A stretch of 45,880 bases of DNA from Candidatus Thalassarchaeum sp. (lineage in GTDB: Archaea; Thermoplasmatota; Poseidoniia; Poseidoniales; Thalassarchaeaceae). Positions 9,746 to 23,984 of this stretch are shown piece after piece (position 1 is the stretch's first letter; every line of letters starts with the position of its first letter). Made by a program: the position numbers and the translations under genes. The stretch covers positions 1 through 45,880 of the forward strand of contig JASMMD010000008.1 of assembly GCA_030748335.1 (NCBI GenBank), written 5' to 3'. The notes under the pieces were generated by a model that did not search any database, was not told the origin of the DNA, and saw only the letters and a list, made by a program, of their open reading frames with translations.

Positions 9746-9808
9746 CGCTCGACACCCCCGGACGTGTCCGAACGACGCTCCATCATCATCATAAGTCAGC
9801 CAACGGCG

Positions 9809-9818
9809 CTGAAAACCG
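9809..9818 (+). promoter_or_regulatory. TATA-like element of the giant calcium-repeat gene
   Basis: CTGAAAACCG is centred about 23 nt before the ATG at 9836, near the position expected of a TATA box for a leaderless transcript. A similar TTGAAAACAG lies upstream of dnaJ. CGTATACAG at 9817-9825 is an alternative but lies too close to the ATG. Confidence 0.35.
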
Positions 9819-9835
9819 TATACAGAGGTCATACC

Positions 9836-12800
9836 ATGCGTCGCAAGCAGACAGCGCTACTGATTACGATGCTGCTTCTCAGCAGCCTTGCCTTCATCTC
9901 GCAGACTCGCCCTCAGTCATCGGTCTCCTCGACCGACCCGATAACGGCGGACAGGGGAGGGCCTCCCGTGACCGATGAGGACGGTGACCGTATCCCGGAC
10001 CTACACGAGTCAATTTTCGGTGATGTCAGATTCGTCGAGAGTAGCACGGGAGTGGTCTCGGTCAATGGCCTGAACCCGATGAACGCCACCGACAACATGT
10101 CCGATCACGACAACGACGGAGCCAGCGCACTTCTCGAGTTCTGCTGGCCTTACACCCTCGACACCTGCTTCGACCGCCTCTCCCTCACCGGCAAGCCCCC
10201 TCAGTTCACCGATTCCGGACTGAGGGAGTACCTCGATCCGAGAGTCGCCGATACCGATGGGGACGGGCTTCCCGACGGGTACGAGATTTACATGTGTACC
10301 GAGGGCGGTTTGGGCTATCAGAACGCAACCAATTCGTGGCAGTGCCTCTGGTTTGACCCGCTCGACCCCTCTGACTCCATCGAGGATATCGACAAGTGCG
10401 ATGACTTCAGCTTCGGCTGCGGCGACGGCTTCGACGTCGACAGGGATGGAGATATCGATGTCGGCGAGCGATACACCAACTCGGAGGAGTACCTGTATGG
10501 CACCCCGGACGACTGGCTCACCGAGCGTGATGGCCTTTGGTGCGCCGGCGAGATTCCCGGGCTCTCCGAAGACTCCTGCCAGACCGAGGTCGCTAGGGCC
10601 ACCGATGACAGCGGCTGGCTCGGCAGTGATCCTACCGAGCCGGACTCCGACTACTACACATGGTCTGAGGTGATGGCGGTGGGCCTAGCTGTCCCTGGGG
10701 ACGGGATTCCTGACGGATGGGAGGTCCACTACGGGCTGGACCCCCGCAACTCCAGCGATGCCATAATGGACACCGATCTAGATGGTTGGGACTTGGACAG
10801 AGACGGATTCATCATTCCAGACATCTCCACCTCAACGGCTCACTGGGGCGAGGCGTTCAGCAATTACGAGGAGTACATGATTCACCATGACGACGGTGCA
10901 TGGGTCACTCCAGGTCTGAGGGGGGCCTCGTTCTCGGATGGCGAGTCCGAAACCTCCTCGTTCGATCAGAGTACCAGTCCCGGGCTGGTCGATGGCGCCG
11001 TGCACACGGTACTGGCCGATTCTGCTAGGGATAGGATGCTGGTCGGGTCTAGGTATGGCATCTCGGTGATAGATCCGTTCGGAGGCACCGCATCCCTCCA
11101 CGAGCTTCCCTCTGGGATGGAGATGCACACCATGGTCAGATGGTCGCCGGACGATTCGGACTTCCTCATCATCGGCTCCAACAGGGGGCTGCACACCATC
11201 CCCCTCGAGAATGGACTACCTCAGATGGATTCGATGTCTGAGTCTGATATAGGCCCGGTCGAATCAATCTACCCTCTTGATACCGGAAGCGGTGATTTAG
11301 ACCTAATCTTGTTCGGAAACCGATCTGCTTGGACGGCAACGGTATCAGTTCAGGGCAACGGCGACGAGGCCAGCGTAGGCGAGGCGGTACCCAACACAGC
11401 GATGACGGACCTGCTGGTTGACTCCGAGGCCGACGTACTCAGCACCGTGCACGTGCCCATGTTTGGCAGGGGTCCGCTGCTGCTGATTGGCACCGATGCC
11501 GGACTGATTGCATGGAACACCACCGACGGCTCCACATCGATTGGGGAACCTTGGTGGGTATTCGATCGGGAAAACGCCGAGGACTTCGTGCAGAGGGCGG
11601 ACCTGCTGAATGTGACCAAGTCAGCGGTGGTCAACGCATTGGTCGCCGCCGGTCCTCTCGACGCGTTAGGTGGGGTCGAGGAGGTCACCGGAGTATGGGT
11701 AGGGACCGCTGGGGGGCTGCACTTGCTGGACCTACAACTCCTAGTGCAGATGCCTCGAACGGCGTTCGATTCGGAGAGGATGTACAACCTCGAAAGATGG
11801 GCCGAGGGGGCCAATGACGTCCGCTCCATACTGCCGATGGACGACAAAATACTGATTGGTTCGCGAGATGGCACGTGGTGCCTCGAGGGCGGCCACTCTG
11901 GAATCCTTGGACTGTATCTAAATCAGACGAGGATACCTGGTCTGGTGACATCTCTGTCCACCCTTGAGTACGGCAGCAGCCTATGGGTATTCGCCGGCAT
12001 CTCGCCGGGCCGATACATGAATATCATGCCGATAGACCCCACCTCAAAGGACTCTGACCTAGATGGGATGCCTGATGGATGGGAGTTCATCTATGGCCTC
12101 GATCCCACCGACCCGCACGACAGGTACAGGGACGCCGACGCCGATGGGGTCCACTTCTCCACCTCGGACGGCTTCGAGTTCGACCGCGACTGGACGAATC
12201 TCGACGAGTACAGGTTCGTGTCGGTCACGGAGGGCGGGTTCAACGGCACCGATCCACGTGACACTGACACCGACGGCGACGGCCTGACTGACGGCGAGGA
12301 GTACTGGGGGTGGTTCGCAGAGTCGACCAACTTCGACTGCCATTACCTCAACGACGAGTACCTGTGTGACGAGGAGACGGGCGAGCTGGCCGAGCAGGTC
12401 CACCTCGAGGGATGGCTGGGTTCGGGCGCCGGAGGGGGTACCGACGGCCCTACTGACCCTACCAATTCGGATACGGACGGCGACGGCATGCCCGACGGTT
12501 GGGAAATGGAGCATCGCAGGTGGATCGGCGACGTCTACAACGGAGGCAACCTCTGGACACTCGACCCGCGCGATCCTTCGGACAAGGATGGGGACGCGGA
12601 CGGCGACGGCCTGAGCAACCTGTGCGAGTATATGTGGGGGAATCTGCTGGAGAACGTGCTCCGTGAGGGCCTAGCGTCGCATGGGGAGACCTCCGAGGCC
12701 GCGGTCAACTGGACCGCGACCGATCCCAATAACATCGACTCTGACGGGGACACCCTGCCCGACGGTTGGGAGGCCCGCTACGCCTGCTCTTGGAAGAAGG

Positions 12801-15553
12801 ACAACGCCGGAATCAACCCACTGAACGGCTCCGACTATCTGAACAATCCCGATGGGGATGGTTACGATATCAACCATGACGGCGTCCTCGATATCGAGGA
12901 GAGCCTAGTCAACTGGCTCGAGTACCACCTCAAGTCCGAGATACTGTATGGCGATCAGTCAGCCTCCGGCATGGAGTACCCAGAGAACTTCACCACCCTG
13001 CTGTGGAACGAGACTTGGATGGACTTCGCCGATGACTCGTTTGGGTACTTCACCAGCCCTGCCTACAGCAGCCTAGTGAACGGCACCACTCCTCAGGACG
13101 TCGGTTCGTCCAATCCCCTCTCGTCCGATTCGGACAGAGATGGCATGCCCGACGGATGGGAGTTCTACCACGCTAGATGGAGTTTGTTCGACGGACAGTG
13201 GACACTCAACCCGGTCGACGAGAGAGATAGGACGGGCGACCCGGACGGCGACGGGATGAACAACTGGGAGGAGTACAACGTAATCGATAGCAACTTCAGT
13301 GAGACCGACGAGCTGATCACCGTACCCCAGTTCTACCTCCTCAGTGTGGGCGGTGAACTGCTGGCATCGCCATGGCTGTCGGCCGAGTCAGCAGCCTCGT
13401 TCGGGACCTTCCTCACAGAGGAACAGATCAACAAGAGCGGCATGACCGCAGACCCGAACGATCCAGACACCGACGACGACGGACTGCTCGACGGAATCGA
13501 GTTGATATTCACCCGCTGGAACTCGACCGATGAGATATGGACGCTGAATCCGCTGGTCGCGGGTGACGGTAACTACGACTCGGACAGGGACGGCATCACC
13601 GACCTCGTCGAACTAAACCTGACATTGAACAACCCCGCCAACGGAGGACTCTCGCCCCCCGACGCCCCGAGGATGTGGGAGGAGGCAGAGCAGCTAGATC
13701 CCGACGAGGCGGTCAACCGTGTGTACAGGATTCTGTTCAACAAGGAGGGCAGGGCCGAGCTGGCGATAGCCCAGTTCGAGTCTTGGCAGGATGGCTCGGC
13801 CGCACAGCCGGTGGTCTCGGCCCTGCTGGGTGCCTCGGACCCCAATGCCGAGGACACCGACCGGGACGGAATGAGCGACGGCTACGAGTACTGGTTCACC
13901 GAGTGGGACCTTGAGGACAACAAGTGGGAGATGAACCTCCTGACCGACAGTGACATCCACGTCGACTCGGACGACGACTCGTTCGATTGCAACGGCGACG
14001 GACACATCTCAGACTCGGAGTCCTTCGACAACCTCGCCGAGTACGACGCTAGGGTATACGGCAAGCGCTCGGCCGTCGACACCATCCCAAACGGCACTGG
14101 ACTCGTGTCCTACGGCGCAGATGCGGTGACTGCACAGATAGAGGAGAACGGCTTGACGTACGAGGCAGCATTCGCACAGCTCTACGTCATGTTCTCGACC
14201 AAGAGCCTAGTCTCTGCCGAGCGCGCCGGATTAATCAACGAGATTGACCCTGACACCTTCAACTACAGCATCGCCGGAGTCAGTGACCCGACCGACGACG
14301 ACTCGGACAGGGATGGGATGCCCGACGGTTGGGAGTTCTGTTACTCTATCTACGGTGAGTTCCTGCCGGTGAATGCCTACAGGTGGTCGATGAACCCAAT
14401 TAATCCCTTGGACGTCGACTACGATCCTGATGCGGACGGCTGGTACGACAGGTCGTGGGAAGACGTCCCGGCTCCGCAGGGCACTTGGGAGGCGAGGCAG
14501 TTCACGCCCGCGCCCCCCGAGCAGCAGCTCGAACAGGGGTTCCTAGGACTGTATTTCAGCAACCTGATGGAATACCTGAACGGCACCCACCCTCTGGACA
14601 TCGACTCGGATGACGACTCCATGGTGATGAAGCCAATCATGCAGAATGGGGGCGTAATTGACTACGTGCAAGACACTAACCTATCGGATGGCAGAGAGGT
14701 CTTCAAGTACGGCACCAATCCGCTTGATAACGACACTGACGGCGACATGATGCCCGACTTCTACGAGTACTATCGGGGTTGGAACGAGGACAACGACAAC
14801 TGGTCTTCCTACCTCAAGATCTCTGTGGTCTGGCAGCAGATCACCGCGACCAATTGGAAACCAGTCAACATAACTGGGTCGAGTATCGCGAGGCCCGAGC
14901 TGACTTGGACTTGGTTCACCCACGACGCCACCGATCCATCGGACGCGGGCCAGGACGCAGACAACGACGGCAGCTGGGACTGCTCGAGTGGTAATTGCCT
15001 CTATGTCCCATACAACAACTTCCAGGAGTACTACGGGCTCGTCAACGCCTCTCTGGCCTCGCCCTCGCTGGTCAGGCAGGCCGGGCTGTACGACTGCTCG
15101 GGTAACATAGTGCAGGAGTGGTGGCAGCTACGAGAATCCCTGCTTGGGACCTGCTCGGGCAGCGCTGCTCTGAGCTCCAACTACTTCCGGATGTACCGGG
15201 TCAACAACGCCGACATGCTGTATGCACTAATCATCAACGACAACGACCTCGATTATGAGGACATAGATACCAGCAACGACGAGGTGCTGGTGAATGGAGC
15301 TTGGACCGACGAATACCAGAGGTTCGCAGGGGACCAATACCACCTGCCCAACACTGGGCTGGGCGAGTACGTCTACGGATGGTGGCTGATCGACATCGAC
15401 GGCGATCAGATCGCTGACGGCACCGACCCGGCCAACTGGGATACCGACGGAGACTGGCTGAACGACTTCTTCGAGATCGAGGATGACATGCTGGATGGGG
15501 TAAGGGGCAACAGCGGCTCTCCTATCAGGTACGACGACCGGACCACTAGTTGA
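9836..15553 (+). CDS. Giant secreted protein with thrombospondin-type-3 calcium repeats and a propeller-like insert
   Basis: 1905 residues. I chose the ATG at 9836 because it gives a signal peptide (MRRKQTALLITMLLLSSLAFI, then SQTRPQS); the frame is open upstream to 9764. The protein contains about twelve D-x-D-x-D-G-type calcium-binding units, mostly of the form DxDxDGMPDGWE followed by a Trp-rich stretch, LNPxDxxD and DGDGxxNxEEY. Examples are DTDGDGLPDGYE near the start and DSDRDGMPDGWEF later. Between about residues 365 and 730 the repeats are interrupted by a segment with sensor-propeller-like strands: LVGSRYGISVIDPF, LLIGTDAGLIAWNTTDG and VWVGTAGGLHLLDL. There is no C-terminal membrane helix, so the protein is either released or held non-covalently. 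Calcium-stabilised adhesion or a surface scaffold is the likely role, by inference from the repeat family. Confidence 0.85.
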   Translation: MRRKQTALLITMLLLSSLAFISQTRPQSSVSSTDPITADRGGPPVTDEDGDRIPDLHESIFGDVRFVESSTGVVSVNGLNPMNATDNMSDHDNDGASALLEFCWPYTLDTCFDRLSLTGKPPQFTDSGLREYLDPRVADTDGDGLPDGYEIYMCTEGGLGYQNATNSWQCLWFDPLDPSDSIEDIDKCDDFSFGCGDGFDVDRDGDIDVGERYTNSEEYLYGTPDDWLTERDGLWCAGEIPGLSEDSCQTEVARATDDSGWLGSDPTEPDSDYYTWSEVMAVGLAVPGDGIPDGWEVHYGLDPRNSSDAIMDTDLDGWDLDRDGFIIPDISTSTAHWGEAFSNYEEYMIHHDDGAWVTPGLRGASFSDGESETSSFDQSTSPGLVDGAVHTVLADSARDRMLVGSRYGISVIDPFGGTASLHELPSGMEMHTMVRWSPDDSDFLIIGSNRGLHTIPLENGLPQMDSMSESDIGPVESIYPLDTGSGDLDLILFGNRSAWTATVSVQGNGDEASVGEAVPNTAMTDLLVDSEADVLSTVHVPMFGRGPLLLIGTDAGLIAWNTTDGSTSIGEPWWVFDRENAEDFVQRADLLNVTKSAVVNALVAAGPLDALGGVEEVTGVWVGTAGGLHLLDLQLLVQMPRTAFDSERMYNLERWAEGANDVRSILPMDDKILIGSRDGTWCLEGGHSGILGLYLNQTRIPGLVTSLSTLEYGSSLWVFAGISPGRYMNIMPIDPTSKDSDLDGMPDGWEFIYGLDPTDPHDRYRDADADGVHFSTSDGFEFDRDWTNLDEYRFVSVTEGGFNGTDPRDTDTDGDGLTDGEEYWGWFAESTNFDCHYLNDEYLCDEETGELAEQVHLEGWLGSGAGGGTDGPTDPTNSDTDGDGMPDGWEMEHRRWIGDVYNGGNLWTLDPRDPSDKDGDADGDGLSNLCEYMWGNLLENVLREGLASHGETSEAAVNWTATDPNNIDSDGDTLPDGWEARYACSWKKDNAGINPLNGSDYLNNPDGDGYDINHDGVLDIEESLVNWLEYHLKSEILYGDQSASGMEYPENFTTLLWNETWMDFADDSFGYFTSPAYSSLVNGTTPQDVGSSNPLSSDSDRDGMPDGWEFYHARWSLFDGQWTLNPVDERDRTGDPDGDGMNNWEEYNVIDSNFSETDELITVPQFYLLSVGGELLASPWLSAESAASFGTFLTEEQINKSGMTADPNDPDTDDDGLLDGIELIFTRWNSTDEIWTLNPLVAGDGNYDSDRDGITDLVELNLTLNNPANGGLSPPDAPRMWEEAEQLDPDEAVNRVYRILFNKEGRAELAIAQFESWQDGSAAQPVVSALLGASDPNAEDTDRDGMSDGYEYWFTEWDLEDNKWEMNLLTDSDIHVDSDDDSFDCNGDGHISDSESFDNLAEYDARVYGKRSAVDTIPNGTGLVSYGADAVTAQIEENGLTYEAAFAQLYVMFSTKSLVSAERAGLINEIDPDTFNYSIAGVSDPTDDDSDRDGMPDGWEFCYSIYGEFLPVNAYRWSMNPINPLDVDYDPDADGWYDRSWEDVPAPQGTWEARQFTPAPPEQQLEQGFLGLYFSNLMEYLNGTHPLDIDSDDDSMVMKPIMQNGGVIDYVQDTNLSDGREVFKYGTNPLDNDTDGDMMPDFYEYYRGWNEDNDNWSSYLKISVVWQQITATNWKPVNITGSSIARPELTWTWFTHDATDPSDAGQDADNDGSWDCSSGNCLYVPYNNFQEYYGLVNASLASPSLVRQAGLYDCSGNIVQEWWQLRESLLGTCSGSAALSSNYFRMYRVNNADMLYALIINDNDLDYEDIDTSNDEVLVNGAWTDEYQRFAGDQYHLPNTGLGEYVYGWWLIDIDGDQIADGTDPANWDTDGDWLNDFFEIEDDMLDGVRGNSGSPIRYDDRTTS

Positions 15554-16055: not shown

Positions 16056-16388
16056 TCAGTCACTCTCAGCCTTGGCGACGATTCCGCTCGAGACCCACCA
16101 AGCATCGATGACCGACCATATGAACAGGACCGGCCACAGGACGACCGAGAAGATCAGTGGGAGCTGGATTACGAAGCACCCGAACGCCTTGCGGTGCTGG
16201 CGGTTGAAGTGCTGCCCGAGGTAGAGGAAGGGGACGAACGATAGAGCGAGGGCCACTAGCGGGCGAAGTGCCCCCCATGGCCCGATTCCCCCGCTCAACT
16301 CGTGCCATATCACCCCGATGACACCGAGGGCACTAGCCTCACCAGGTTCTTCGTCCGAGGCGACGCTGACCACGTACTCATCCGCCAT
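16056..16388 (-). CDS. Small membrane protein, TM2/DUF5683-like
   Basis: 110 residues from the ATG at 16388 (MADEYVVSVAS); the frame extends upstream, but an earlier start would run into the divergent gene. An acidic N-terminus is followed by two hydrophobic helices (LRPLVALALSFVPFLYLG and FVIQLPLIFSVVLWPVLFIWSVIDAWW). They are separated by a short basic turn (QHFNRQHRKAF). The order LGQ-FNRQ-hydrophobic-IDAW resembles TM2 or DUF5683-type small membrane proteins, which have a similar GQ-x-YN-x-Q turn. The function of that group is not established. It is divergent from the pyroglutamyl-peptidase/Nudix gene (68-bp spacer) and convergent with the upstream hypothetical gene. Confidence 0.65.
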   Translation of the reverse strand: MADEYVVSVASDEEPGEASALGVIGVIWHELSGGIGPWGALRPLVALALSFVPFLYLGQHFNRQHRKAFGCFVIQLPLIFSVVLWPVLFIWSVIDAWWVSSGIVAKAESD

Positions 16389-16456
16389 CGAGGGCCCACC
16401 TGCGCACCCGATGCATGAATCTGACGCCGACTCGTTCGGCGAAAAGGCTACTGCGA

Positions 16457-17464
16457 ATGCGCCGACCGCTACGCGTGAGCGAGCCACGCCTACTGGTCAC
16501 AGGATTCCCGGCATTCTCCAACTTCGAGAGCAACATCTCTGAGGAGGTGCTCTCTAGGCTGGAAGAAACGGGACTTCCTGGCATCGATGTCGTGACATGG
16601 CTGCTCAGCGTGGATGAGGATGGTTCGCGCGCGGTCGCCGAGCAGATTAGCGATGGCATACTGGTCGACGGCATCCTCCATTTGGGCTTGGCAACGAGGA
16701 GGGATTCAATTTGTCTCGAGAGGCAGGCCCGTAACAGATTCTCGATGAGGGAGTCGGACAACTCCGGGAGGCTCCGCGACTCGGGTGAGATAGTCGAGGG
16801 CGGTCCTCCTACGTTGCTCACCACCGCATCTATCCACGTCATGGACGAGGAGTTTGAGCACGACGACAACGTCGGCTGGAGCGAGGACGCGGGCGGCTAC
16901 GTTTGCAACGAGACCTTCTACCGCACGCTGCTTGCGATTCGGGATTCTGGAAATAATCCCATTCCGGCGCTGTTCGTGCACCTGCCGCCCGAAGCACAGG
17001 TCGCTCTAGACACCCAAGTTGATGTAATCAGGCGCATAGCTGCCTGCCTAGTATCGAGACCGACCTACGAAGTCGTCGGCGGAATGTTGTTCGATAGCGA
17101 AGGAAGAATCCTAGCTTGCAAGAGGCCCGAGGGCGATGCCTGGGCCGGTTGGTGGGAGTTCCCAGGCGGCAAGATTGAAGCCCACGAAGGGCCTGAATCG
17201 GCTCTTATTAGGGAACTGGTTGAGGAGATTGGAGTCTCCACGAAACCTATACGCAGAATCGAACAGACTCGCTACGAGTACTCAGACAGATCCGTGAACC
17301 TACAGCTCTGGGACTGTGGAGTGGTGGACCCGGACTCGATAAGACTGGTTGAGCATGATGAGGTCAGGTGGCTGTCCGATGAGGAGCTGCTGGACGTCAA
17401 GTGGCTGCCTGCCGATCTACCAATAGTCGAGAGGTGGTGGCGCGAGGGCATCCCGCGTGGTTAG
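16457..17464 (+). CDS. Fusion of pyroglutamyl-peptidase I-like domain and Nudix hydrolase
   Basis: 335 residues from the ATG at 16457; ATG 16415 would add 14. The first ~200 residues match peptidase family C15: an LLVTGFPAFSNFE opening, the Glu motif LERQARN (Glu88), the Cys motif GGYVCNETFY (Cys150) and the His motif FVHLPPE (His175). The full Glu/Cys/His set of pyroglutamyl-peptidase I is therefore present. The last ~125 residues are a Nudix domain of MutT/NudG type: ILACKRPEG, WWEFPGGK, and a complete Nudix box running GKIEAHE, seven residues, then RELVEEIGV. The two halves would act on different substrates: N-terminal 5-oxoproline in peptides, and probably oxidised or non-canonical nucleotides. 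The stop overlaps that of the convergent UPF0201 gene by 4 nt. This domain combination is unusual to me. Confidence 0.85.
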   Translation: MRRPLRVSEPRLLVTGFPAFSNFESNISEEVLSRLEETGLPGIDVVTWLLSVDEDGSRAVAEQISDGILVDGILHLGLATRRDSICLERQARNRFSMRESDNSGRLRDSGEIVEGGPPTLLTTASIHVMDEEFEHDDNVGWSEDAGGYVCNETFYRTLLAIRDSGNNPIPALFVHLPPEAQVALDTQVDVIRRIAACLVSRPTYEVVGGMLFDSEGRILACKRPEGDAWAGWWEFPGGKIEAHEGPESALIRELVEEIGVSTKPIRRIEQTRYEYSDRSVNLQLWDCGVVDPDSIRLVEHDEVRWLSDEELLDVKWLPADLPIVERWWREGIPRG

Positions 17465-18012
17465 CCTTCACTAATCGTCCGATTGCCCTCGCGATCGAAC
17501 CATTCCACGGGCTCACCCTCATCAGTCATGGCCAATTCGTCCCCCACGCTGCGTGGCACGGAATCACGACCTGCATGCCATGTTCGCTGTTCCAGCCAGT
17601 TCGCAAGTCCGTCTCCAGTCAGTCCAACCCTCATTTCCCCGCCCATCGCCCTCTCGGAGATGACGAACGACGCCTTGCCGGCCAGTGCGGCCTGACGCGA
17701 CAGGGAAAACCCGGTCGACCCTCCGTCGAGCTCCATTGTCATCGCATCTAACGCGGTGTCTAGGATTCTCTGATTCTTCGTCGCCTCCAACAGGGTGTCT
17801 AGGGACTCGGACGAACCGGTCATCATCACCGCCGACCTTTCGTTCGGGAAGTTGGTGTTGGAAGGTGACACGTCGGGGCTCCAATCGGGAAACATCACCC
17901 TGACCGCTTCGACAACCCTGCGAGGGTCCTCGTGCGGCTGGACCACCGTTGAGATGCTAATCAGCGGTGTCACGGCCGCTCGAGGGCGTTCATACCCATG
18001 AGTTCTCTGCAT
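17461..18012 (-). CDS. UPF0201 (DUF54) family protein, possible RNA-binding
   Basis: 183 residues from the ATG at 18012; ATG 18039 is an alternative. The opening TPLISISTVVQPHEDPRRVVEAVRVMFPD matches the start of archaeal UPF0201 proteins (strand, then P-T/H-EDP, helix, FP). A further family signature is the block SLDTLLEATKNQRILDTALDAM followed by STGFSLSRQAALAGKASF. UPF0201 proteins are archaeal, about 130-150 residues long and L5-like in fold, with a presumed RNA-related role that is not experimentally settled. This one carries a C-terminal extension of about 30 polar residues. It is convergent with the Nudix fusion (4-nt overlap at TTAG) and divergent from the zinc-ribbon membrane protein (34-bp spacer). 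Confidence 0.75.
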   Translation of the reverse strand: MQRTHGYERPRAAVTPLISISTVVQPHEDPRRVVEAVRVMFPDWSPDVSPSNTNFPNERSAVMMTGSSESLDTLLEATKNQRILDTALDAMTMELDGGSTGFSLSRQAALAGKASFVISERAMGGEMRVGLTGDGLANWLEQRTWHAGRDSVPRSVGDELAMTDEGEPVEWFDREGNRTISEG

Positions 18013-18046
18013 CAAGGGACTCCCGGGGACGCGAATCATTCAAACG

Positions 18047-19990: not shown

Positions 19991-22138
19991 TTACTCGGAC
20001 TCACCCCAGTCCAGAGCCCGGTTCGGTGTAGCGGCTAGGGGCTCGCCGCCCACAAGTCCTGAAAGCTGGAATCCGAGGCTTGTCGGGTTGCCCTGAAGCG
20101 TCAGGCTGAGGAACACCTTGCTACCAGCGGAGAGGGTGTCTAGGAATATCTCGTCGTCCTGGAACAGCCGGCTAGGCGAAACCGAGGAGATCCCGACCTT
20201 CGCTCCCTCGGGGGCATGCACCCTCATGGCGGCCAACTCCCATGGTTCATCCTCGACCCTGATTCCCAGGAGTAGCGATGCCTCTCCCTCGGCGATCTTC
20301 CACACGCAAATCTCCACCTGTCTCGTCATGTGGCGCAGCAGTGGCTCGCCCCAATCTTGGAACACCGCCCTCCAGGGGCTATCACCTAGCTGCTTCAGCG
20401 AGTACTCAATCTCCCCTTCGTCCACGACTTTCGCAGACACCGCCTCGGCCAGTCTCTCGCGCAGGCGGCGCAGCCTCCGACGCTCGTGTGCCTCTATGTC
20501 GCTGACCAGTGGAGCCCCGCTGAAGATGGCCGCTCTGTTCCACCAAAGCACCACCGCCAAGGGGGCTAGCAGCACGAAGCCGGCGAACACGTAGAAACCC
20601 CTAGCCTTGTGCGACAGATCAACGAACTCGTTCTCCTGGGGCTCGTAAGGGCCGTTGTACGGAAGTGAGAACTGGTATTCTCCGGTATCACCTCCTCCTT
20701 GGCCCATGCTCTGCCCCAAGTCGACCTTCAGAGCATGGACTCCGGGAGGTACAATCATCATCGAGCCGTCGGTGAAATTCACCACCTCCCCAGTTCCTTG
20801 GTCTAGTGTCATCAGCGTGAATGTCCCGGGTGAGTCTCCAATCCTCTGGATACGGACGTAGGACCCGTTCTCCTCGGTCACGGAGATAGCGTACACGTCA
20901 GTGGTGTCCGAAACGCCCAGACTGCCCTCGATGGTCGCAGAACCCAGGCTCAGTACCTGCCATCTCGAATCTGGTCCTCCTACCTCCCAGATTGTATCCG
21001 GCGCATCTCCGATCAGGGTGCCGTCACCCGGCTGAAGCGAACTGAGCATGATGGCCCAAGCAGCGGTAACGCCTTGAGTCGTAAGGCCGAACTCTACCGA
21101 TATCGTGTTCATGGTGGTCTCGAACGCTTCCTCACAACCACTCTCCACGGCCAGACTCGTGCCGTCCATCTGGTGCAGCGTGATTTCGACCTCGACTTCG
21201 TCCGTAAATGAGCAGTGCGGATCGAGATGCATCTTGGAACCGGAGGCTATGAGCAATGAGTCCCCCTGTGAATCAGAGCCAGCTATGTGCCCGTAGTACA
21301 GGAGCGACGAATCCTCGTAGAAGGGCATGGCCTCACCGTGACTCCACGGGTTGCTCAACTCTCCCGCGTCCGGGGCCTCGGTGTCGTCATCGTAGCGAAT
21401 AATCTCGAACTCGTACGGCGAGTAGCCCTCCTCGGCCGAGTGAACCAAGCGTATCCACAGCTCCCCTTCGGCCGGATACTCGAAGTAGTGCCCCATATCT
21501 TCTCCTTCTAGGGTGTTTACGAGCGACTTCGACTCACTCCCTCTCTGCCAGATTTCGATGCTGACATCACCTGGCCCCCTCAGGCCATTGAGCAGTACTA
21601 CGTCACCCGGGTCACCCACAATCATCACTGAGTCTTTGTCGCTCTCGTTCTCCAACGCCCCAACGTACAGGACCCCCTCGGAGATGAGGTCCATCGCGCC
21701 ACAGAAACGCATCTGGCACGGCGAAGCTGTGTCTATCGTTGGATACTCCACCTGGCTTCCTGGGGGCGGGACGATGTTGGGCAGGTCATCGTACTCGGTC
21801 CATTCATCCATCCTGCTGAGTATCACTTCAATCCGCACGTCCCCTTGCTGCGTCCCGGAATCGACGATTAGCCTCCATGACACGTTGCCATCAACCCAGC
21901 CAGACCACTCGACGAGATGAGGGTCATCGTGACTGTGCTCGATCCCGTCAGTCATGACCACGAGCTCCATTCCCGGACAGCCGACCTTTAGGCACTCAAC
22001 TTGTATCCAGACCGGCCCAATGGTGCTGAACGACTCATCTCTGAGCACCACCTCCGTGTCCCCGTCGGCACTGACGGCAGCGCCGAGCGCAGCCATCGCC
22101 ACTAGACAAGCCAACAGCCCCGCCCGCACGCCTCGCAC
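19991..22138 (-). CDS. Signal-peptide, single-pass membrane protein with PPC-like ectodomain and cytoplasmic domain
   Basis: About 715 residues. No ATG fits; GTG at 22138 (or 22129) places a signal peptide right at the start (VRGVRAGLLACLVAMAALGAAVSADGD). Longer versions of the frame would run through the divergent archaeosine synthase promoter. The ectodomain (~550 residues) contains beta-rich modules like pre-peptidase C-terminal domains: SDKDSVMIVGDPGDVVLLNG with VSIEIWQRG, and TDVYAISVTEENGSYVRIQRIGDSPGTF. One membrane helix follows (GFYVFAGFVLLAPLAVVLWW). A cytoplasmic domain of ~180 residues then starts with a basic helix (EAHERRRLRRLRERLAEAV). The tail family was not recognised. It could transmit an extracellular binding signal, but this is speculative. 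Confidence 0.75.
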   Translation of the reverse strand: MRGVRAGLLACLVAMAALGAAVSADGDTEVVLRDESFSTIGPVWIQVECLKVGCPGMELVVMTDGIEHSHDDPHLVEWSGWVDGNVSWRLIVDSGTQQGDVRIEVILSRMDEWTEYDDLPNIVPPPGSQVEYPTIDTASPCQMRFCGAMDLISEGVLYVGALENESDKDSVMIVGDPGDVVLLNGLRGPGDVSIEIWQRGSESKSLVNTLEGEDMGHYFEYPAEGELWIRLVHSAEEGYSPYEFEIIRYDDDTEAPDAGELSNPWSHGEAMPFYEDSSLLYYGHIAGSDSQGDSLLIASGSKMHLDPHCSFTDEVEVEITLHQMDGTSLAVESGCEEAFETTMNTISVEFGLTTQGVTAAWAIMLSSLQPGDGTLIGDAPDTIWEVGGPDSRWQVLSLGSATIEGSLGVSDTTDVYAISVTEENGSYVRIQRIGDSPGTFTLMTLDQGTGEVVNFTDGSMMIVPPGVHALKVDLGQSMGQGGGDTGEYQFSLPYNGPYEPQENEFVDLSHKARGFYVFAGFVLLAPLAVVLWWNRAAIFSGAPLVSDIEAHERRRLRRLRERLAEAVSAKVVDEGEIEYSLKQLGDSPWRAVFQDWGEPLLRHMTRQVEICVWKIAEGEASLLLGIRVEDEPWELAAMRVHAPEGAKVGISSVSPSRLFQDDEIFLDTLSAGSKVFLSLTLQGNPTSLGFQLSGLVGGEPLAATPNRALDWGESE

Positions 22139-22199
22139 GTGGGGCCGACTCGGCTGCACCTTAGAATCCTTCAAGCGAACCGCGTCAGTGCGTTGGCGT

Positions 22200-23984
22200 A
22201 TGGCAGAACGTCCACTGGCTCGCGGTGCCACCGCAAGGCAACGTTTCGCGAGGCTGATGGCACTGGGTGACCGGAATGATCCGGTCGGGTGGGCACCTGG
22301 GCTCGTATTAGGCCCGGAAGACCCTGAACTCGAACCATCCGTGGCGCCGTTCTCGTACTCTAGGAGCCAAGGCTCCGTGCCAGCCACGCTCTCGGTTTCA
22401 ACAAGGGCCGAGATGTGCTATCCCTTCGACTCCATCGACACATGGCAGGCTTCCGAGGGACTTTCACTGCCCCCCAGCCTCGTGGATGCCGACTCGGGGA
22501 AGTCGGGCAAGGGCTCCGAACTCCTCCCGGTCTCGTGGCAGTCCATGCACCATGATCAGACGCTCAACGAGCCCGGCCTGCAGCCATCGGTGGTGGCTCT
22601 GGTGGATGCAGCACAGCTCGCTGAGCGTCCGGGCTTGCTGGTAAAAGCCCTCGATGCACTGAGGGTGCGCTTCCCATCATCCCTGATATGGACTCCCGGG
22701 ATCGCGGGTCCTGACAACTGCGCCCTACTATCTTGGATGGGAGTGGACTTGTTTGACATGTCGCGCTCGAGTGCGGCTGCGGCCCGAGGCGTCATACTCA
22801 CTGAGGACGGCCCGAGGCTGCCAGAAACTACGCTCGGCGAGAGCGCCGACACAGAGGCGCAGTGTGCTGCGTGGAGGCGTGCCATCGCAGCCACGAGGAC
22901 CGCGATTCGCAGCGCCTCCCTTCGTGAGCTGGCGGAGCGTCAAGCGGCATCGAGCCCACGCTCGGTAGAGCGTCTCCGTCGCCATGATGCCATGATGAGA
23001 GGGTACGAGGGTGGCCGTTCGGGCCTGTCTAGGGTGGTCGGTCATGAACACAGCCTGAGGTGCCACACACACTCGAGCCGGGATGACGCGCTGATTCACG
23101 ACTGGCGCAACAGGGTCGCCGACCATCACCAGCCTCCCGAGCACCAGAGGCAGGCTCTGTTGCTTCTGCCTTGCTCAGCGGTGAAGCCGTACCGTACTTC
23201 TCAGAGCCATAGGAGGTTCCTGAGGTCGATCGGCTCTGACGCAGTTCACCAGGTCATGGTCACAGCCCCCCTAGGTCTGGTCCCTAGGGAACTCGAGGAG
23301 ATATGGCCCGCTGCCAACTACGACATCCCTGTAACCGGGGAGTGGGATATCGACGAGTTAGCTGTTATTCGTGACATGCTCGCTCGACTCGTGCCCAGAG
23401 TCGGCTATTCAAGAGTAATCAATCACTCGGGTATCGACATTGAGTTGGAGCGAGTAGAATGCGTAGACACCCGCCTAGGCGATTCAGCGGGCTCGGCCCA
23501 AGCACTATCGAGATTGGAGGAGGAGGTTGACAGGGCGTCCTCGGAGCTGAGCCTACAGAGTCCGCCGAGACCTGCTCACAGGCTTGACCAGATGCGAGCA
23601 CTGTCGCGCTTCCAGCACGGCACCGATGCTTGGTTGGATGGATCCAAGGTGCAGGGGAGGCCCCCGATCTTCACGATAACCAGTGGGGGTGAGCAGATAG
23701 CGCAGTGGAATCCAAGGAGCGGCAGGTTCGCATTCTCCAAGGCATCCCTCCCCCTGCTCGACGCCTGCGATGCCGTTCCTAGGGCTAATCTGGCACCCGG
23801 TTTCGATTGGCGGGGCGACCTATTTTCCACCAACGTTGAGTCGGCGGATTCGCGAATCAGGGTCGGCGACGAGGTGCTGGTGATGCAGGAGGGTCGACTG
23901 ATTGGCTCGGCACGAGCCGAGGCGCCGGGCTGGGAGTGGCCTGACGGGCCGGGAAGGCTGGCCCGCTCGCAGCACAGGCTGTAG
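22200..23984 (+). CDS. arcS: Archaeosine synthase ArcS-like (TgtA2) with C-terminal PUA domain
   Basis: 594 residues from the ATG at 22200; the frame is open much further upstream, but that part overlaps the divergent gene. The diagnostic block is LLLLPCSAVKPYRTSQSH (Cys325), matching the PCSxxKPYxxSxSH motif of archaeosine synthase. It is followed by VMVTAPLGLVPRELEEIWPAANYDIP, also typical. The N-terminal ~300 residues correspond to the degenerate TGT-like domain. The C-terminal ~90 residues are a PUA RNA-binding domain (QWNPRSGRFAFSK ... VGDEVLVMQEGRLIGSARA). ArcS converts preQ0 at position 15 of tRNA to archaeosine together with TgtA. It faces a signal-peptide protein across a 61-bp divergent spacer and precedes the S15 gene by 67 bp. 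Confidence 0.85.
   Translation: MAERPLARGATARQRFARLMALGDRNDPVGWAPGLVLGPEDPELEPSVAPFSYSRSQGSVPATLSVSTRAEMCYPFDSIDTWQASEGLSLPPSLVDADSGKSGKGSELLPVSWQSMHHDQTLNEPGLQPSVVALVDAAQLAERPGLLVKALDALRVRFPSSLIWTPGIAGPDNCALLSWMGVDLFDMSRSSAAAARGVILTEDGPRLPETTLGESADTEAQCAAWRRAIAATRTAIRSASLRELAERQAASSPRSVERLRRHDAMMRGYEGGRSGLSRVVGHEHSLRCHTHSSRDDALIHDWRNRVADHHQPPEHQRQALLLLPCSAVKPYRTSQSHRRFLRSIGSDAVHQVMVTAPLGLVPRELEEIWPAANYDIPVTGEWDIDELAVIRDMLARLVPRVGYSRVINHSGIDIELERVECVDTRLGDSAGSAQALSRLEEEVDRASSELSLQSPPRPAHRLDQMRALSRFQHGTDAWLDGSKVQGRPPIFTITSGGEQIAQWNPRSGRFAFSKASLPLLDACDAVPRANLAPGFDWRGDLFSTNVESADSRIRVGDEVLVMQEGRLIGSARAEAPGWEWPDGPGRLARSQHRL

Follow-up and report, generated by a model that had tools for sequence, protein, structure and literature searches.

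A C15 peptidase–Nudix hydrolase fusion found nearly throughout the Poseidoniales: a candidate bifunctional house-cleaning enzyme

A single gene of the Poseidoniales (Marine Group II) encodes, in one reading frame, a C15 peptidase-like domain and, directly behind it, a MutT/NudG-type Nudix domain. This pairing, apparently new although both enzyme types are well known, occurs nearly order-wide at one fixed genome position, and its function is predicted. Marine Group II ranks among the most abundant archaeal groups of the surface oceans, and we know of no member in culture. Its sole C15 peptidase and its sole strong MutT/NudG-type sanitiser are the same protein in nearly all genomes examined, and the fusion may bear on protein-end repair as well as on the cleaning of the nucleotide pool in the group. 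We lean towards viewing it as a cytoplasmic house-cleaning enzyme that is bifunctional, its two active sites working independently; the activities, the substrates and the reason for the fusion are all predictions.

Both domains lie in one intact gene

The gene was analysed in a stretch of DNA of 45,880 nucleotides, here called the window. Its features are as follows:

16457..17464, + strand: C15 peptidase–Nudix hydrolase fusion gene, 335 aa; GTG 16475 is a possible start
16487..17053, + strand: predicted C15 (pyroglutamyl-peptidase I) domain, residues 11–199; PF01470, invariant triad, Foldseek matches to Pcp
16718–16720 (E88), 16904–16906 (C150), 16979–16981 (H175), + strand: predicted C15 catalytic residues
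17066..17446, + strand: predicted MutT/NudG-type Nudix domain, residues 204–330; PF14815 at 5.4e-19, NCBIfam MutT and NudG models
17168–17236, + strand: Nudix box GGKIEAHEGPESALIRELVEEIGV, residues 238–260; complete, invariant in 73/73 fusions

The gene is a single + strand frame without an internal stop. Its longest ATG form spans 16415–17464 (349 aa). Many homologues begin at about residue 7 of the 335-aa form, and the true start may therefore be GTG 16475 and not ATG 16457.

Pfam searches matched the first half to Peptidase_C15 (PF01470; E = 1.5e-15, residues 11–185, 58.2 bits against a cut-off of 22.7) and the second to NUDIX_4 (PF14815; E = 5.4e-19) and NUDIX (E = 4.2e-18) over residues 206–323, all above the curated cut-offs, with no stop codon between the two halves. 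The preliminary description, which had read the gene as a one-frame fusion and had proposed this domain search as a check, is borne out. The Glu88, Cys150 and His175 motifs that it named line up with the catalytic triad in Pcp structures, and the Nudix box that it called complete fits GX5EX7REUXEEXGU.

An AlphaFold2 model of the fusion was confident throughout (pLDDT 95.8, pTM 0.89), and in it the first half is predicted to adopt the C15 fold. Foldseek returned the Pcp structures 6ltq, 2ebj and 5z48 as the best PDB matches of the C15 half (E down to 5.5e-17) and, separately, the MutT-type structures 3grn, 3r03 and 2rrk as those of the Nudix half. The linker between the domains is about 4 residues long (3–4).

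Distribution of the fusion

The order-level search sample comprised 194 Marine Group II (Poseidoniales) genomes, in which each of the two families and nearly every genus yielded the full-length single-frame fusion. The C15 profile alone gave matches in 173 of the 194, with one C15 in each except for one genome with two, and frames of at least 305 codons hold 140 of the 150 C15 matches listed. The two closest copies elsewhere are 90% and 73% identical to the gene in the window. An artefact, in which a frameshift or an assembly error had joined two genes, was considered: its one point in favour is that the window comes from a metagenome-assembled genome (1.16 Mb, 81% complete). The order-wide survey refutes it, leaving it virtually no chance, since independent assemblies from throughout the order share the single-frame fusion, one of them a 2.06-Mb genome in a single contig. 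The survey of related genomes suggested in the preliminary description thus found the homologues fused, not separate, and no frameshift. The fusion gene is real and intact, neither a frameshift nor a local accident.

A pattern scan of 84,980 species, which reaches close relatives only, gave full-length matches only in Marine Group II, and a scan of IMG/VR with the same reach gave no viral copies. In the sister family of the same class, matches were weak at most among the 6 genomes listed. Other Thermoplasmatota carry stand-alone C15 genes and separate Nudix genes. A pair of adjacent separate genes was considered as the precursor of the fusion and rejected: no Nudix gene lies beside the stand-alone C15 gene at any of 19 Thermoplasmatota loci, within the few kilobases fetched. 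No description of a C15–Nudix fusion was found in the literature searched, and the main text of the Marine Group II papers searched makes no mention of pyroglutamyl or Nudix enzymes. The architecture appears to be undescribed, while both component enzyme types are well known.

The C15 half retains the features of pyroglutamyl peptidases

Judged by its sequence, the first half is a member of peptidase family C15. Compared with Pcp (MEROPS C15; 6ltq, 2ebj, 1iu8 and 5z48), it has a common predicted fold (TM-score about 0.8 by target length), the Glu-Cys-His triad and the phenylalanine and HLGL motifs; it differs in being only about 25–31% identical, in being shortened after the catalytic His and in having a Nudix domain directly behind it. 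The triad of E88, C150 and H175 is invariant across 82 Marine Group II sequences, one Cys cell being an unresolved X, and the pocket-lining motifs TGF.PF, HLGL and CN are retained. Both halves of the gene are under purifying selection. For the C15 half, dN/dS was about 0.08–0.26 in close pairs of fused genes, and it was 0.12–0.29 in pairs of C15-only genes.

The preliminary description had also raised the idea that the peptidase was repurposed. In this scenario the C15 half would have shifted to another substrate, such as a lactam, a hydantoin-like or a gamma-glutamyl damage product, and the fusion would serve one type of damage; we regard it as unlikely, though it has the strongest case among the alternatives to be weighed here. 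The score against the NCBIfam pyroglutamyl-peptidase I equivalog (TIGR00504), 69.9 bits, is far below the cut-off of 201.75, and the named enzyme is not assigned by the model. R105 (in DNSGR), G56 and E152 are invariant across Marine Group II and variable in stand-alone Thermoplasmatota C15 proteins. Among 60 Poseidoniales genomes, with positive controls included, a PxpA-type 5-oxoprolinase was found in none and an OplAH-type enzyme in one. Because known 5-oxoprolinases are nearly absent, any pyroglutamate released would have no recognised recycling route, and it is mainly this near-absence that keeps a changed C15 substrate in play.

Against a shifted substrate stand the conserved triad and pocket motifs and the fact that solved Pcp enzymes share the odd-looking residues: 2ebj carries HLGLAEDR and DNRGR, and 6ltq carries CNE. 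The equivalent of Gln71 is Leu in the fusion, and this replacement was rejected as a sign of repurposing because Leu is also found in 2ebj and 1iu8, the solved enzymes of Thermus and Pyrococcus. Since solved Pcp enzymes share it, the sequence gives no good reason to propose a new C15 substrate, and repurposing to another lactam finds no support in the pocket.

The Nudix half is of MutT/NudG type

By profile score, the Nudix half is closer to the MutT and NudG models (81.7 and 81.6 bits) than to other Nudix types, RppH included (at most 38 bits). Both scores fall short of the equivalog cut-offs (148 for MutT, 156 for NudG), and no subtype is assigned. With MutT/NudG-type hydrolases (3r03, 5x1x, 2rrk and 3grn) it has in common the complete Nudix box and the WEFPGGK motif, and it also carries the C-terminal PAD motif of NudG. 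Unlike them it is a domain of a larger protein, and its equal likeness to both models does not decide the substrate. The top NCBIfam model for this half is PRK08999 (103 bits against a cut-off of 245), a MutT–ThiE-like fusion whose members we take to be two-domain proteins that join a MutT-type domain to a thiamine-phosphate-synthase-like partner; in the gene described here, the partner is the C15 domain.

In nearly all of 60 Marine Group II genomes, the fusion was the best match to the NudG profile, and the runner-up was usually weaker by many orders of magnitude. A stand-alone NudG-like protein of 135 aa besides the fusion was noticed in one genome only (G041, contig C181, 4022–4411). For the remaining Nudix proteins in the window's genome, the best-scoring models are those of other Nudix types, and one of these proteins forms the N-terminal portion of a protein resembling polyprenyl synthases.

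Some bacterial regulators, NrtR among them, use a Nudix domain to sense a ligand, and the Nudix half might likewise sense a nucleotide and regulate the peptidase. The C15 half can exist alone, which suits such a role. We nevertheless hold it to be very improbable, since the catalytic residues E244, R252, E253, E256 and E257 are invariant in 73/73 fusions, the domain is of MutT/NudG type and not of ADP-ribose type, and in most close pairs conservation is stronger in the Nudix half, whose dN/dS is 0.04–0.15 in all close fused-gene pairs but one. A further copy, L022, from a genome of the window's genus (G023), is full-length except that an in-frame TAA interrupts its Nudix part, and represents either a decaying copy or an assembly error.

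Origin and losses

In the C15 tree, the 82 Marine Group II sequences form one group (support 0.81), and the C15-only forms of two genera (g4 and g5) are nested among the fusions. The C15-only loci have cleanly lost the Nudix coding sequence, and their C15 stop lies directly against the usual convergent neighbour; these forms, present in several lineages, keep the triad intact. The matches listed for the order include no intact Nudix-only gene; the Nudix-only matches of the fusion's type in that list lie at contig ends. Because the C15-only forms are nested and Nudix-only genes were unseen, the fusion is taken to be ancestral to the order as sampled, with C15 as the half that is kept when one is lost. 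A single fusion event, in the Poseidoniales ancestor or earlier, was followed by losses of the Nudix half alone or of the whole gene. Transfer of the Nudix half to another site in the lineages that lost it was considered and rejected, as no NudG-like match of comparable strength was found there. The whole gene is lost in genus g10 and part of g4, where the neighbours have closed up, indicating that the fusion is dispensable. The repeated loss of one half only is a natural experiment on the importance of the fusion.

These losses bear on whether the two domains act in sequence on one molecule or pathway, by coupling or channelling. Retention of the fusion across both families, the short linker, the confident domain arrangement and the lack of an intact Nudix-only gene among the matches listed all favour such coupling. 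It is set back by the several lineages that retain the C15 half without the Nudix half, and we know of no metabolite that bears both a pyroglutamyl and a nucleoside-diphosphate group; on balance, we find coupling improbable. The interpretation offered in the preliminary description therefore holds in part. The fusion and its two intact active sites stand, and nothing was found showing a joint pathway; we doubt that a C15-derived hydrolase and a MutT-type Nudix enzyme handle a single damage product or pathway that connects nucleotides with pyroglutamyl-like lactams.

Predicted function as a house-cleaning enzyme

The best-supported part of the earlier interpretation is that of two damage-cleaning enzymes joined in one protein. 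In the bifunctional house-cleaning enzyme that we favour, the C15 domain would cleave pyroglutamate off the N-termini of peptides or proteins by means of its Glu-Cys-His triad. The Nudix domain, with Mg2+, would break down (d)NTPs that are damaged or non-canonical into NMP and PPi by hydrolysis. The two sites would work independently, and fusion would provide fixed co-expression and a rigid scaffold, not substrate channelling. If the two sites do act independently, the C15 half should be able to survive alone, with its triad intact, after clean loss of the Nudix half, as it does in several lineages. Weighing against the house-cleaning proposal are the near-absence of known 5-oxoprolinases, the scores of both domains below their equivalog cut-offs, an uninformative neighbourhood and the dispensability of the gene.

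Genomic neighbourhood

The fusion had the same neighbours at 53/53 loci inspected, in both families. In the window they are:

16056..16487, − strand: small membrane-protein gene, divergent, constant left neighbour; weak PF14373 match, real start probably near 16388
17461..18039, − strand: RNA_binding (PF01877) gene, convergent, constant right neighbour; its stop abuts that of the fusion

Beyond the PF01877 gene lie a zinc-ribbon gene and then DnaJ; these conserved neighbours (membrane protein, RNA_binding, zinc-ribbon and DnaJ) gave no functional clue. A 165-aa gene precedes the fusion at 52 of the 53 loci. In genomes that lost the fusion, the PF14373-type and PF01877 genes stay adjacent, with a gap of about 45–105 bp between their tblastn matches.

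Elsewhere in the window, positions 9764–15553 (+ strand) encode a giant surface-type protein of 1929 aa full of DxDxDG-type repeats, a same-strand relative of which lies upstream at 29/53 loci. Positions 21954–23984 (+ strand) encode a protein with a DUF5591 domain and a weak PUA domain that resembles archaeosine-synthesis enzymes.
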